Shown: in pieces, positions 3,176-18,052 of the stretch
Position numbering within the stretch: the stretch's first letter is position 1
Layout: each line of letters begins with the position of its first letter
Source: a virus
DNA length: 21,452 bases
IMG/VR virus record: IMGVR_UViG_3300025168_000802
Location: 1-21,452 of that record
Strand: one strand, 5' to 3'
Position numbers and translations under genes: made by a program
Notes under the pieces: model-generated
Told to the model about the DNA's origin: nothing
The model's database searches: none
Seen by the model: only the letters and a program-made list of their open reading frames with translations

Positions 3176-3534
3176 TGATAAATATTCAAGCAGGAAAAGT
3201 TGTTACGATATATCCAGACAATAAAACTTATTATAGAACCAGAACAGTTACTAATGAAGGTCTAACTATAAAAATAATAAATCATTTTCTTAAAAATTCT
3301 GGATATAGATTGTATCATATAACTAATAGACAAGGAGGTATTTCATCTACTCCTTATCAGTTGCTACCCGTAAATAAAAATTATAAGTGTTTAAAAAAGA
3401 AAAAATATTTTGATACTCTTATTATAACACAATATGGAAATTGGAACAAAAATAACTACACCTCTTACACTATTGATTGGTGGAATAAAGAAATAAATAA
3501 AAAACTTAAATATGCTAAGAGGTTAAATACATGA
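3175..3534 (+). CDS. Basic hypothetical protein
   Basis: This 119-residue protein is strongly basic and rich in Tyr, Asn and Lys. It is predicted to be mainly beta in the first half (AGKVVTIYPDNKTYYRTRTVTNEG) with a lysine-rich tail. No known domain is recognisable. The charge suggests nucleic-acid contact but this is weak. It overlaps the coiled-coil gene upstream by 1 bp and the following gene by 4 bp (ATGA), which supports it as part of the P2 operon. Confidence 0.5.
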   Translation: MINIQAGKVVTIYPDNKTYYRTRTVTNEGLTIKIINHFLKNSGYRLYHITNRQGGISSTPYQLLPVNKNYKCLKKKKYFDTLIITQYGNWNKNNYTSYTIDWWNKEINKKLKYAKRLNT

Positions 3535-4079: not shown

Positions 4080-4295
4080 ATGGAAGAACCAAGAGCTAAA
4101 CACCCTATTCAAACTATAGCTGATTTTAAAATATGGCGAATGGTAGATATGGTTTGGACACAAGATGAATGTGCTAAACACTTAGGATATAAAAGTAGAC
4201 AAAGTGTTGCTAAGTTAGAAACTGGAAGAGCAAAAATAACACCTAGAATTTCTGGATTATTAGAATTACTATCACATAAAAAATTTAATACATGA
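4080..4295 (+). CDS. Cro/CI-type (XRE) HTH transcriptional regulator
   Basis: This 71-residue protein has a single helix-turn-helix domain: TQDECAKHLGYKSRQSVAKLETGRAKITPRISGLLELL (residues 27-64). It matches the lambda-repressor-like pattern 'T-x2-x-x-A-x-x-LG--S-x2-x-V-x-x-E-x-G-R-x-x-P'. The recognition helix is around SRQSVAKLE. There is no C-terminal oligomerisation or autocleavage domain, so it resembles Cro-type or small MT-like regulators. It has its own promoter (P3) and a strong RBS. It is the natural candidate to bind the palindromes at P1 and P2. It overlaps the downstream oxygenase gene by 4 bp (ATGA). Confidence 0.78.
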   Translation: MEEPRAKHPIQTIADFKIWRMVDMVWTQDECAKHLGYKSRQSVAKLETGRAKITPRISGLLELLSHKKFNT

Positions 4296-4864
4296 GCCTA
4301 GCAATACCTCCTATTATGGGAGGCTCTCATGGTGTTGTAAGTGCAGGAGAATTAACTAAATTAGACTGTAAGAAATTAATTAACTTGCATAAGACATCAC
4401 CCCATACAAATGGAAAAGTTCAAACATCATCTAGTGATAATAAAAAAATTGTTTCTATAAGACAAGTTGATGCATGGCGCATACATGAAAATCAATTATG
4501 GGTAGATGAATTATTAGTATCAACAATAAGAACAGTTAATGAAGATGTGTTTCAATACAATCTATCTGGTTTAGTAGAAAGACCACAACTGCTTAGATAC
4601 AATGCAGGTTCAATGGGTTATGATTGGCACACCGATATAGGACAAGGTGATGCTAGAAATAGAAAATTAAGTATGTCTATTATTTTAAATAATGATTATG
4701 AAGGTGGTGAGCTAGAGTTTTTTGGTGATGGAGTAACGAATATTCCTACTCAGAAAGGCGATATAATAGCCTTCAGTAGCTTTATACCCCATAGAGTTAC
4801 TAATATAGTATCTGGTGAGAGATGGGCGATTGTAGCATGGTTCTCTGGACCACAATTTCGCTAA
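4292..4864 (+). CDS. 2OG-Fe(II) oxygenase, PKHD-type hydroxylase
   Basis: This 190-residue protein carries the full set of non-haem iron oxygenase landmarks. LLRYNAGSMGYDWHTDIG (100-117) provides H113 and D115. ELEFFGDG (140-147) forms the core strand. GDIIAFSSFIPHRV (156-169) provides H167, and R177 ten residues later is the expected 2-oxoglutarate salt bridge. This matches the prolyl 4-hydroxylase-like superfamily (PF13640 and PKHD types) common in marine phages. The substrate is unknown; protein prolyl hydroxylation or DNA/nucleotide modification are candidates. The gene is coupled to the HTH regulator by ATGA and is the last plus-strand gene. Its stop overlaps the stop of the converging minus-strand gene. 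Confidence 0.85.
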   Translation: MSLAIPPIMGGSHGVVSAGELTKLDCKKLINLHKTSPHTNGKVQTSSSDNKKIVSIRQVDAWRIHENQLWVDELLVSTIRTVNEDVFQYNLSGLVERPQLLRYNAGSMGYDWHTDIGQGDARNRKLSMSIILNNDYEGGELEFFGDGVTNIPTQKGDIIAFSSFIPHRVTNIVSGERWAIVAWFSGPQFR

Positions 4865-14115: not shown

Positions 14116-14741
14116 TATAAAACTTCCCTAACAGCAAAAGTAATTCCGTAAGTAGATACTGCATTTGTATCCCAATTAGTTTCACTAGCTGATAATCTAA
14201 AAACACCTTTTGTATCTGCTACAGTTATTGCTAAATTATTTGTAGGACTTTCTCTTAATGCAGGTTCAATAGATAAAGTAAAGTTTCCTGAACCATCTGA
14301 ATTAGAATCTGCTGTTACCATATGCAATCTTGATGCTGTACCTGTTCCTAATTGTATATAATCACCTGCTTTTAAATATCCTGTTTTACTATTTGGCGCA
14401 CCATCACACACTAAAGTATTACCTGTTTGGTCTGCTCCATTGACTAATGGTGTTCCTGCACTTGTTCCTGCTGTACCTAAAGCAACTCTAGCATCCCAAT
14501 CTCCCAAGAACATACTGCCATACTGCCCTCTAAGGCTTACTAAAAAAGCTACAAAAGCTCTAGCATTAGCAGTACGCATGGGAGGCATAGTAACCTCGCA
14601 CTCCCACCATTCTCCTGTATACTGGTACACTTGTTGCTCTCCAGTAAATACACTTGTTGATGTGCCTATAATTCTTTTTATTCTCCAAGATGTGCCACTA
14701 GGTGCAACAGTTGCAGGAATAGTTACTGGATATGTTGTCAT
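14115..14741 (-). CDS. Distal tail protein (GTA gp12-like position)
   Basis: This 208-residue beta-rich protein has N-terminal strands (TSWRIKRIIGTSTSVFTG) leading into EQQVYQYTGEWWECEVTMPPM (35-55) and an 'ARAFVAFLVSLRGQYGSMFLGDWD' element (60-83). The 'F-T-x-EQQVY ... G-x-W--x-x-x-x-PPM' pattern recurs in phage tail proteins placed between tape measure and hub. Distal tail proteins form the hexameric ring joining the tube to the baseplate. It overlaps the tape measure gene by 4 bp (ATGA) and the hub by a TAATG junction. The family assignment rests on position as much as sequence. Confidence 0.65.
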   Translation of the reverse strand: MTTYPVTIPATVAPSGTSWRIKRIIGTSTSVFTGEQQVYQYTGEWWECEVTMPPMRTANARAFVAFLVSLRGQYGSMFLGDWDARVALGTAGTSAGTPLVNGADQTGNTLVCDGAPNSKTGYLKAGDYIQLGTGTASRLHMVTADSNSDGSGNFTLSIEPALRESPTNNLAITVADTKGVFRLSASETNWDTNAVSTYGITFAVREVL

Positions 14742-16864
14742 GAGAACGTATCAGCCATTTGACCACCCCTCTTTTTAGCATCCATAACAGCATTTACAGA
14801 TTCTTGTTTAAATTGTGGTAATAAAGCAACCATCTCTGCTCTTACTGTTTGTGATACTCCTGTTTCTATATTTATAGTTTGATTAACTGTTGCTCCACCA
14901 CCACCTGAATTTTTAAGACTTCTGTTTGTAAATATACCTCCTGATGTGTGTGGAACAAATAATTCTGGTCCTTTTTCTCCTACTAATGACGGAGTATTAG
15001 GATTGACACTTCCTCCGTTAGCAAATCCAAATATATTACCTTGACCACCAGAGCTATTAGGATTAAATCCTCCACCACCTCCTCCAAAGAATGAGCTACC
15101 AATAGATATTATCTTTCCTAAATCAAATCCTCCTCCACCACTACTACCACCACCACCAAAAGTTTTCATTATAGCTTGTTTTGCTTGTAGTTTAAGTAAG
15201 TCAGAAATAATATCTCTAATTATGCTTTTAAGACCATCTCTAAAGCCTTTCCAACCTTCTGTCATTCCTGCTAAAGCATCTGCTGTGCTATCAGCTAAGA
15301 AATCTGTTACTCTTTCTATTCCTTCAAGAGCAATCTTGCCCTCTTCAGTTGATTCTATCATAGCTACTTTTAATCTACCCATAGATAAAGCATACTCATC
15401 ATTAGTTATCTCACCTAAAGCTAAAGCCTCTCTTAAAAAATGTATTTCTTCTGCATAATCTTTAGTTACCAACCCTAATTCTTGTAATACTTTTTGTCTT
15501 TCATCATAATTTTCTTGTTCTTGTTCAGATTGAATATTTACCTGTACTTGTGCATCTTCTAAATCTCTGTAAGCATCTGCCATAGCTTGCATTAAATCTA
15601 TGCTCTCTTGTTGACTTACTAAATTTGGAAGATTCTCATTAACAAGGTCTGCACCTAATATTTTTGGTTTCTTTTTTTCTTCTACTTTCGTACTTTTAAC
15701 AACTATATCATCAATTTTTTCAAATTTATCATCTTCAAATAAATCATCATAAAGCTCTCTTACTTTTTTCATAGCTACTTCAAGTAACTCCATTTTTTCT
15801 GCTACTACTAATGCTCCAAGAGCTATAAGTCCAAGAGGTGATTTTTTTGCTATCATATTGAAAGCAAGCATTGCACCTTTTGCAGTAGTAATACCTTTAG
15901 CCAAAGTAAAAAATCCTGCGCCTAATGTAATTACTAATAAACCTAATTTTAAAGCAACAAAAGCTGTAGCTATTCTTAGTAAAGCATCCCATTCTTCATA
16001 AACAAAATTTATTGCGTCTGCTAAAGCATCCATTGCAAATACTAAACCATCACTTATAGCTTCTGCGTATCCTTGTAATTTTTCTGTATTATTAGCTAAA
16101 GTTGTATCTAAATCTTTAAAATGTCCTTTTAATGCGGCAAAAAATCCTGCATCATTAATTGCTCTTTGGAAATTAAAGACTTTATCCCCAATCATACTTA
16201 AATTACCAGAAAAAGTGTTAGCTAATTTATCTGTAATTCCTTCATTATCTGCGGCAAATTGCTCTAAAGCTAATTTTGTATCAGCTAAAGATACTTTTGT
16301 TCCTGCCGCAAAGCCTAACATAGCAGTAACACCTTTATCTCTAAAGAGGTCTGCCGCTCCTATTCCTGCACTCAATGACCTTTGAATTTGTTGAGATGTT
16401 GTTTCAAAATCTAGTCCTGTTGCGGCGGCAATAGTACCAGTCATTTCTAATAATTCACCTAATTCTACTGCATCATCTGCTACAGATAATAAACTTCCTG
16501 AACCTGCTTGAATTTCTTTTAAGCTAAATGGTACTTTAGATGCAAATTTAGACATTGTTTCAAAGGCTTTTCCACCTTCTTCTGCTGATTTAAATAAAGT
16601 TTCAAATCTAATTTGCAAACTTTCTATATCATTACCTACTTTAACTAAAGACCTTATTCCTGCTCCTACTCCTAGACCTATTAAAGCTCCTTTAAGACTA
16701 AAAATAGCTTTACCCACACCTTGCATTTGTGTTTTAACCTTCATGAAATGTCTATTCATTAAGGTTGTTGATTGTTTACTGGCATTTGATGCTTGTTTTA
16801 AACCTCTTTTGAGGTCTTTCATGTCAGCTTCTATGCGTACTATGAGTTTATCTACAGTTGCCAT
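14738..16864 (-). CDS. Tape measure protein
   Basis: This 708-residue protein has the classic layout: a helical N-terminus (ADMKDLKRGLKQASNASKQS, about 14-33), a hydrophobic glycine-rich segment (about 52-74), and the conserved LQIRFETLFKSAEEGGKAFE (83-102) and VPFSLKEIQAG (111-121) motifs. A second hydrophobic region follows (about 295-330). Next are long Glu/Gln/Lys coiled coils and a polyglycine/serine linker leading to a C-terminal SLVGEKGPELFVPH motif. At about 1.5 angstrom per residue the tail would be near 106 nm (inference). The start overlaps the stop of the frameshifted chaperone frame (TAATG). No lytic peptidase motif is visible, consistent with the separate NlpC/P60-like gene. Confidence 0.88.
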   Translation of the reverse strand: MATVDKLIVRIEADMKDLKRGLKQASNASKQSTTLMNRHFMKVKTQMQGVGKAIFSLKGALIGLGVGAGIRSLVKVGNDIESLQIRFETLFKSAEEGGKAFETMSKFASKVPFSLKEIQAGSGSLLSVADDAVELGELLEMTGTIAAATGLDFETTSQQIQRSLSAGIGAADLFRDKGVTAMLGFAAGTKVSLADTKLALEQFAADNEGITDKLANTFSGNLSMIGDKVFNFQRAINDAGFFAALKGHFKDLDTTLANNTEKLQGYAEAISDGLVFAMDALADAINFVYEEWDALLRIATAFVALKLGLLVITLGAGFFTLAKGITTAKGAMLAFNMIAKKSPLGLIALGALVVAEKMELLEVAMKKVRELYDDLFEDDKFEKIDDIVVKSTKVEEKKKPKILGADLVNENLPNLVSQQESIDLMQAMADAYRDLEDAQVQVNIQSEQEQENYDERQKVLQELGLVTKDYAEEIHFLREALALGEITNDEYALSMGRLKVAMIESTEEGKIALEGIERVTDFLADSTADALAGMTEGWKGFRDGLKSIIRDIISDLLKLQAKQAIMKTFGGGGSSGGGGFDLGKIISIGSSFFGGGGGGFNPNSSGGQGNIFGFANGGSVNPNTPSLVGEKGPELFVPHTSGGIFTNRSLKNSGGGGATVNQTINIETGVSQTVRAEMVALLPQFKQESVNAVMDAKKRGGQMADTFS

Positions 16865-17076
16865 TAGTCTGGATATACCTCCATCATTTCTTTAAGGTCG
16901 TCTTTTTGCATAGGAGCTTCTTTGCCACCATTAAATTCTTGGAAACCTTCTATGGCTAAATTTAATTCTATTAAACTCATATCCCAAAACTCCTTTGGTG
17001 GTATATGAAGCATTCCAATTCCGATTTGTATATATCGTTGCCAGTCTAATCGGTCTGATTTGACACCGCTTCTACG
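16864..17076 (-). CDS. Tail assembly chaperone second frame (PF09550-like), reached by -1 frameshift
   Basis: This frame has no good start of its own. It is closed upstream by a TGA just before the slippery site and stops at TAA 16866-16864. Read from the slip point it gives 70 codons containing DWQRYIQIGIGMLHIPPKEFW (residues 11-31 after the slip), followed by DMSLIELNLAIEGF. That is the core of the small GTA/phage tail assembly chaperone family PF09550 ('W--L-x2-G---L-x-x-P-x-x-FW-x-x-x-x-x-EL'). It sits in the -1 frame relative to the upstream chaperone. Fused after 113 upstream residues it would make a 183-residue protein, the equivalent of lambda gpGT. An internal ATG (GMLH) could make a truncated form but has no clear RBS. 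Confidence 0.82.
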   Translation of the reverse strand, partial: RRSGVKSDRLDWQRYIQIGIGMLHIPPKEFWDMSLIELNLAIEGFQEFNGGKEAPMQKDDLKEMMEVYPD

Positions 17077-17414
17077 TTTTTTTCAGAATCTTCTTCTTCA
17101 TCTTTGTTGCCACCTGTAATAGCATTAGCAAGAATTTCTCCTGTGACTTTTATGCCTTCTGTTAAACCTGATTCAAATACTAACTCACCTATTTCTTTTT
17201 GTGTCATGTTATTACCACCTGCTCTAATAGCTATTGATAATACTGTTACACAATCTGTTATAGAAAGATTACTATTCATAAGCTCTGTTGCTAACTTTAG
17301 AATAGGTCTTCCTGTGCCTGCCTCAATCCTCATAATACCATCTAGTGTTAGTCTAGTGTTGTACTCAGTATTATTTAGATTTACCTTTAGTTCTCCTCGA
17401 AATTTGTTCGCCAT
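17046..17414 (-). CDS. Tail assembly chaperone (GTA gp10-like, PF11836-type)
   Basis: This 122-residue protein begins with a beta-strand pair (FRGELKVNLNNTEYNTRLTLDGIMRIEAG) followed by helices and an IGELVFESGLTEG segment. It matches the pattern of GTA gene 10-type tail tube-associated proteins, placed between major tail protein and tape measure. These act as chaperones for the tape measure in tail assembly. The acidic tail (DEEEDSEKN) carries the A_AAA_AAC slippery heptamer. It ends in NVEAVSNQTD when translation stays in frame. A strong RBS (AGGAG, 7 bp before the ATG) fixes the start, although the gene overlaps the upstream frame by 44 bp. Confidence 0.8.
   Translation of the reverse strand: MANKFRGELKVNLNNTEYNTRLTLDGIMRIEAGTGRPILKLATELMNSNLSITDCVTVLSIAIRAGGNNMTQKEIGELVFESGLTEGIKVTGEILANAITGGNKDEEEDSEKNVEAVSNQTD
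17076..17082 (-). promoter_or_regulatory. Programmed -1 frameshift site A_AAA_AAC
   Basis: Minus-strand bases 17082 to 17076 read A AAA AAC, in register with the chaperone codons GAA AAA AAC. A slip of one base back after AAC makes the next codon CGT at 17076-17074, and the frame is then open for 70 codons. A heptamer of this X_XXY_YYZ form at this place, just before the tape measure gene, is the standard siphovirus arrangement. I did not find a strong downstream pseudoknot by eye. Confidence 0.75.
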
Positions 17415-17622
17415 CTTCTACTCCTAATGTTAAAGTTTCACCTCTATCACCATCATTGGTAATAGTCTTAACAATGAAATCTTTACTATTAGATGTAACT
17501 GTTGAACCAACTTCAATTCCTTCAATATAAGGTATTGTAATTATAACAGTATCGTTGGACTTATTCATTTGTCCTTCTACAGTTTCACCTGAAACAACGA
17601 TTTCACTTTTAATCCATGACAT
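17371..17622 (-). CDS. Small beta-rich hypothetical tail-region protein
   Basis: This 83-residue protein appears to be mostly beta strand (VVSGETVEG, DTVIITIPYI, VGSTVTSNSKDFIVKTITNDGDRGETLTLG) with a basic C-terminus (ISRRTKGKSK). It has no family I recognise. It lies between the major tail protein and the tail chaperone, and overlaps the chaperone start by 44 bp. Its start is supported by an AGGAG-type RBS upstream of the ATG at 17622. The GTA has no obvious equivalent here. A role in tail assembly is inferred from position only. Confidence 0.55.
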   Translation of the reverse strand: MSWIKSEIVVSGETVEGQMNKSNDTVIITIPYIEGIEVGSTVTSNSKDFIVKTITNDGDRGETLTLGVEDGEQISRRTKGKSK

Positions 17623-17638: not shown

Positions 17639-18052
17639 TTATACAGTTGCAAAAGTAATAGCACCAGAACTTTCAAATGCGAAAGAATAGGTTACTTCAC
17701 CATTATACTCACCTGCATATTCTAATGATGTTAATTGAAACTTTCCTGTGTAAGTTCCAAAATCTGGGATTAAGAATTGATAGTTAGTCAATGCCGCTTG
17801 GTTCATATCTCCTTGAAGTGTAGCTTCTGAAGCAGAATCAGTAAATACCCCTGAACCACTTACACTCATTGACATTATACCACCATTAGCTAATAAAGTT
17901 CTAGCTGTACCACTATCTTTGTTTGTTATATCAACAGTTTCATCATTAATAGATATACTTGTTGACCTCATTCCTCCTATAGTAGTGAAAACTTCTGGTG
18001 AAGCCGCATTACCTAGTTTCATTAAGAGGGACCTACCTTTTTGTGCCGCCAT
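17639..18052 (-). CDS. Major tail tube protein (TP901-1 family)
   Basis: This 137-residue protein matches the TP901-1-type major tail protein pattern (PF06199). It starts MAAQKGRSLLMKLGNA-x3-EVFTTIGGMRSTSISINDETVDITNKD (approximately residues 1-45). A SMSVSGSGVFTDSAS motif follows, and the closing strands are KFQLTSLEYAGEYNGEVTYSFAFESSG. The length is typical for the family. It forms the repeated hexameric rings of the tail tube. An AAGGAG RBS precedes the ATG. In the GTA this is the gene 9 position. Confidence 0.9.
   Translation of the reverse strand: MAAQKGRSLLMKLGNAASPEVFTTIGGMRSTSISINDETVDITNKDSGTARTLLANGGIMSMSVSGSGVFTDSASEATLQGDMNQAALTNYQFLIPDFGTYTGKFQLTSLEYAGEYNGEVTYSFAFESSGAITFATV

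Follow-up and report, generated by a model that had tools for sequence, protein, structure and literature searches.

The tail assembly chaperones G and GT of phage lambda are encoded between the tail tube and the tape measure protein. The zero frame codes for a chaperone, ribosomes slip by -1 at an X_XXY_YYZ heptamer (GGGAAAG) near its 3' end, and the second domain is made only as part of the fusion. The two products are made at a ratio of ~30:1 (PMC5009743, a review citing Xu, Hendrix and Duda 2004), with the T domain binding the tail tube subunit and the G part binding the tape measure (PMC5009743). In the GTA of Rhodobacter capsulatus (RcGTA), g10 is tail chaperone 1 and g10.5 (also g10.1) is tail chaperone 2 (PMC11409702, PMC9765227), and g10 carries pfam11836 (PMC11409702). 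A frameshift is usual in the tail chaperone genes of R. capsulatus phages and is not evident in RcZahn (PMC8601537). Our literature search found no mention of a frameshift in papers on RcGTA g10/g10.5 and no mention of PF09550 by name. It also found no statement that GTA g10/g10.5 is joined by frameshifting or is split in GTAs, to which we attach little weight, as subscription papers were mostly outside its coverage.

The window (the whole stretch of viral DNA that was analysed, 21,452 nucleotides, IMG/VR record IMGVR_UViG_3300025168_000802) carries a siphophage-like head-to-tail gene set on the minus strand of the right half of this 21.5-kb record. Two chaperone frames occupy the G/T position, with the tail tube upstream and the tape measure downstream (Table 1). 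The zero-frame gene, ORF A, matched PF11836 (Phage_TAC_11, GTA-gp10) at 44.8 bits (E value 1.3e-11), above the gathering cut-off of 27.8, and the tail protein family PHROG 2115. The score against TIGR02216, the rcc01693 family of RcGTA type, was 44.2 bits, below the NCBIfam curated cut-off of 56.1; the locus is related to this equivalog and by the curated cut-off is not a member. The -1 frame matched PF09550 (Phage_TAC_6) at 50 bits (E value 4.1e-13, gathering cut-off 23.4). The domain covers residues 12–72 of the 72 in the frame, and the PF09550 part was also recovered by the genome search. A PDB sequence search for relatives of solved structure gave no credible match, the single hit being a designed protein (E value 0.008).

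Table 1. Coordinates of the chaperone locus and neighboring features in the window
Feature	Position	Strand	Details
Zero-frame gene, ORF A; GTA-gp10-type tail assembly chaperone (G-like)	17046..17414	-	122 aa + TAG; PF11836
Slippery heptamer A_AAA_AAC	17076..17082	-	Phase right for tandem -1 slippage
TGA of the -1 frame, immediately 5' of the heptamer	17083..17085	-	Kept in all close relatives
-1 frame (T-like part), RRSGVK...EVYPD	16864..17076	-	70 codons (17076..16867; 72 including the heptamer) + TAA (16866..16864); PF09550 Phage_TAC_6
Tape measure protein	14738..16864	-	PHROG tape measure matches; PF20155 below cut-off
Major tail tube protein, TP901-1 type	17639..18052	-	PF06199 1.2e-37; TIGR02126
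Candidate stem-loop, 6 nt downstream of the heptamer	17040..17069	-	Possible stimulator

An earlier note, made from the sequence alone, had proposed a programmed -1 frameshift that joins the two frames, and its description of the site was reproduced. The heptamer lies in frame at ORF A codons 111–113 (GAA AAA AAC), nine sense codons ahead of the ORF A stop, and the -1 frame is open from the slip point for the claimed 70 codons, with a TGA just upstream. When recomputed, the predicted fusion of ORF A and the -1 frame again had 183 aa. The -1 frame is, as had been said, of the PF09550 type and has no good start of its own: between its TGA and the interior of the PF09550 domain there is no ATG, GTG, or TTG, and the first possible start, an ATG, comes only after about one-third of the frame, already within the domain. 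Since the TGA lies just 5' of the heptamer in the -1 frame, the heptamer is the sole way to read into it. At the far end, the TAA of the -1 frame and the ATG of the tape measure gene share one base (TAATG).

The locus thus has the lambda gene order, a zero-frame chaperone, an X_XXY_YYZ site near its 3' end, and a second domain predicted only as a fusion. It differs in its heptamer, A_AAA_AAC, and in its proteins, which are of the PF11836/PF09550 GTA type, and the likeness to lambda gpG/gpGT that had been drawn holds as a functional and positional analogy. With RcGTA g10/g10.5 the pair shares its two families, by Pfam/NCBIfam naming, and its order ahead of the tape measure.

Other frames in the window also drew attention. 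An 83-aa frame between the tail tube and gp10 genes (17371-17622, minus strand) overlaps the gp10 start by 44 bases and has only weak matches, to the head completion protein PF05521 (E value 0.01) and to DUF7234; this is an odd place for a head-completion-like fold. Two plus-strand frames (532-1143 and 4292-4864) look by eye like 2OG-Fe(II) oxygenases (HxD...H pattern), two in one phage fragment.

Of the codon positions in the window's genes, 0.76% carry an in-phase XXXYYYZ heptamer, which gives P = 0.09 for an overlap of 12 codons. There are 51 in-phase heptamers in the window, and only two open onto a long -1 frame, namely the A_AAA_AAC described here and one that results from an ordinary 4-nt gene overlap. 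Because of this 9% chance of an in-phase heptamer in the overlap, the window locus alone is weak, suggestive evidence; the heptamer is placed beyond chance by the comparison with close relatives and diverged pairs.

The heptamer, the TGA ahead of it, and the -1 frame are kept in 11/11 IMG/VR relatives (76–100% identity). Across seven aligned sequences, synonymous change was observed at 37 of the 68 codons for conserved residues 5' of the site, and the three heptamer codons showed none. Double coding is no explanation for this conservation, because the -1 frame is non-coding through the heptamer if the shift occurs there; it does constrain the stretch 3' of the heptamer, which was for that reason left out of the count. 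One close relative (L011) has an indel in gp10, upstream of position 3343, that puts the zero frame out of register ahead of the heptamer and may be a sequencing error or a broken gene. That contig is what speaks for an artefact of sequencing or assembly, or a broken gene, as the origin of the two frames in the window; the earlier note had itself named sequencing error as a way of failing. The eleven contigs, which come from several metagenomes, nevertheless agree base for base over the heptamer, and the frame relation is repeated in 42 diverged clusters, so this explanation is extremely improbable.

To these we added more distant loci. A wide alignment of gp10 had no conserved stretch that could serve to find related loci. 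A further 80 contigs were fetched by the window's tail tube protein, irrespective of their chaperones, reference phages were added from two protein searches, and profiles of both parts (A1, A2) were run on every stop-to-stop frame of the loci. The PF09550 frame is in -1 in 96 of the 98 loci with both parts, the exceptions being L011 and an overlapping copy (L039). Clustering at 80% gp10 identity yielded 42 diverged phage/prophage clusters (<80% between clusters), 29 of them fetched through the tail tube only. An in-phase X_XXY_YYZ is present in the gp10/PF09550 overlap of all 42, compared to 4.7 expected from the in-phase heptamer rate in gp10 bodies, and the PF09550 frame is always in -1. Heptamers among the relatives include AAAAAAC, AAAAAAG, GGGAAAC, GGGAAAG, GGGAAAA, AAACCCT, and CCCTTTA, and in this phage survey the stop of the -1 frame is often close ahead of the heptamer. 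Ten reference phage loci have the same frame relation. Selection for slippage predicts the pattern seen, in which the heptamer sequence turns over and its phase is retained.

The 11 close relatives and the 42 diverged pairs with their differing heptamers strongly support the programmed -1 frameshift. Conservation of heptamer and frame in related phages had been suggested as a check, and both are kept throughout, with the heptamer sequence changing among the diverged pairs. A search among phages for relatives in which the two frames are separate and each has an RBS of its own gave none. A start codon is also present upstream of the PF09550 domain in 10 of the 45 phage representatives on the tree, and internal initiation may occur in these.

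The same survey bears on transcriptional slippage, by which mRNAs with one extra A, produced at the A7 run, would encode the fusion. The window does have seven consecutive A residues and some relatives (L012, L038, and L106) have longer runs, but many relatives carry GGGAAAC, GGGAAAG, AAACCCT, or CCCTTTC and therefore no long run, and the X_XXY_YYZ phase required for tandem tRNA slippage is present in all of them. We consider transcriptional slippage very unlikely.

Public annotation mostly records two genes, with the second start inside or beside the PF09550 domain. In four reference phages (L018, L019, L020, and L022), the annotated ATG of the second chaperone has this position, although the frame is already open from a point further 5' and the locus has an in-phase heptamer. 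Streptomyces phage OnionKnight (genes 15/16, OQ938575) has an annotated chaperone and joined product, an in-phase GGGAAAC, and a -1 part similar to the PF09550 part of the window (tblastn E value 9e-3). It differs in being an actinophage, in its much longer overlap, and in a zero-frame protein that the gp10 profile missed.

PF09550 was also found in bacterial genomes, including 45 of the 385 genomes sampled from one class, to which Rhizobium phaseoli belongs, and 170 of 195 genomes of one order, taken to be Rhodobacterales. Of the 45 PF09550 genomes, 30 also carried GTA_TIM, a domain of the GTA g15 protein, as did all of the 40 further genomes that were checked; it mostly lay within ~4–9 kb of PF09550, on the same contig and strand. 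GTA_TIM is multi-copy in some genomes, so some of the bacterial loci may belong to GTA-like prophages and not to GTAs. From each genome search the best-scoring 30 loci were taken, with 33 lower-scoring ones added, and the alphaproteobacterial junctions were classed by the presence of a heptamer and of a start codon upstream of the PF09550 domain. A heptamer without a start was found at 23 loci, all in -1. A start without a heptamer was found at 81 loci; in 61 of them the start sits exactly on the gp10 stop (38 ATGA, 23 GTGA), and the others are spread over any of the three frames. Eight loci have both and four have neither. Heptamer and own start are nearly mutually exclusive (Fisher P ~1e-13, a description rather than a strict test because the loci are related). 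Separate frames with their own starts are a second design in bacterial GTAs and no sequencing artefact.

The two designs are unevenly distributed among orders. In the GTA-rich order of G333, an own start is present in 50/50 sampled loci, 48 of them without a heptamer. In that of G145, 21 loci have an own start and nine, all CCCTTTC, have a heptamer and no start. Loci sampled from the GTA-rich order, our proxy for RcGTA, differ from the window in that the second frame has a start, most often an ATGA or GTGA overlapping the g10 stop, and in that nearly all lack a heptamer. The codons of a PFPW-like motif are CCC TTT in 14/14 heptamer loci, where TTT makes up 44% of Phe codons. A quick tree of both parts indicates at least seven changes between the designs, with several long branches and no readable direction.

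Several individual loci were noted. Nine GTA-like loci from one order (L130, L133, L140, L194-L198, and L231) have CCCTTTC and a PF09550 part without a start codon; other members of that order have ATGA or GTGA, which suggests that the frameshift was kept or regained in GTA-like lineages. Three bacterial -1 pairs (L116, L128, and L220) lack both a standard heptamer and a start codon ahead of the domain.

The own-start loci of bacterial GTAs give substance to another explanation for the window: the PF09550 frame would be a gene in its own right, reached by translational coupling or by re-initiation close to the stop of gp10, with a non-standard start in the role that ATGA and GTGA have in GTAs. 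Bacterial GTAs mostly use an own start for the same pair, and an ATGA or GTGA overlap likewise places the second frame in -1. The window, however, has no ATG, GTG, or TTG from the -1 TGA to the domain interior; a separate gene would have no need of a conserved heptamer, yet the heptamer is invariant; and heptamer and start nearly exclude each other in the bacterial loci. Separate translation is accordingly a highly improbable account of this locus. A rare-codon start in the -1 frame was also considered and rejected, as there is no ATG, GTG, or TTG 5' of the domain and conservation points to no other start.

We conclude, with a probability of about 93%, that the locus is a lambda G/GT-like programmed -1 frameshift cassette for tail assembly chaperones. 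The frames, the heptamer with its conservation and phase, and the gene order were read directly from the DNA, and from them we infer slippage, its efficiency, and the roles of the products. Most ribosomes would make the 122-aa G-like chaperone. A minority, whose P and A sites hold AAA and AAC, would slip back one base at A_AAA_AAC and read 70 more codons, giving a minor 183-aa G-T-like fusion with the PF09550 domain. If lambda is a guide, the part common to both products would bind the tape measure protein, the rare C-terminal domain would recruit the tail tube protein, and neither chaperone product would stay in the virion.

A_AAA_AAC is a weaker bacterial slip site than A_AAA_AAG, and candidate stimulators were sought on both sides of the heptamer. 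An SD-like sequence upstream of it is enriched over the rest of gp10 (median rank 0.135, 42 loci), which may be partly due to a Glu/Asp/Gly-rich linker; that of the window is weak (-1.9 kcal/mol, rank 0.61). Downstream, the folding energy of the candidate stem-loop was not significant (z = -1.3), and the corresponding segment of another locus (L009) folds differently. A general downstream RNA structure was rejected, since folding ranks over the 42 loci did not differ from uniform (KS P = 0.16). Covariation among the close relatives amounted to two double-change pairs, both within one pair of related sequences; one of the two sits in a helix running into the heptamer, and covariation was not used.

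The frameshift device is already known for tailed phages, and the window is a further instance. The surprise for specialists would be a split design in GTAs beside the frameshift design in phages. We consider it probable that the GTA-type pair is widely expressed by a G/GT-like frameshift in phages, that GTAs of major alphaproteobacterial lineages use a coupled ATGA or GTGA and make a free T-like domain, and that a few GTA-like lineages (CCCTTTC) keep the frameshift. The earlier suggestion of a relation between the GTA-type and lambda-type arrangements gains strength, as linked and separate pairs occur side by side within a single chaperone family and have changed into one another. For deposited phage genomes (e.g., L018, L019, and L022), the joined reading corrects the two-gene annotation. 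One pair thus exists in linked and unlinked forms, the unlinked dominant in the GTAs sampled, so that the need for a T-G fusion in building a fixed-length tail becomes directly testable. If the distribution proposed here is true, it would be a natural experiment showing that tail assembly does not require the G-T fusion, and domestication would have changed how the chaperone ratio is set.
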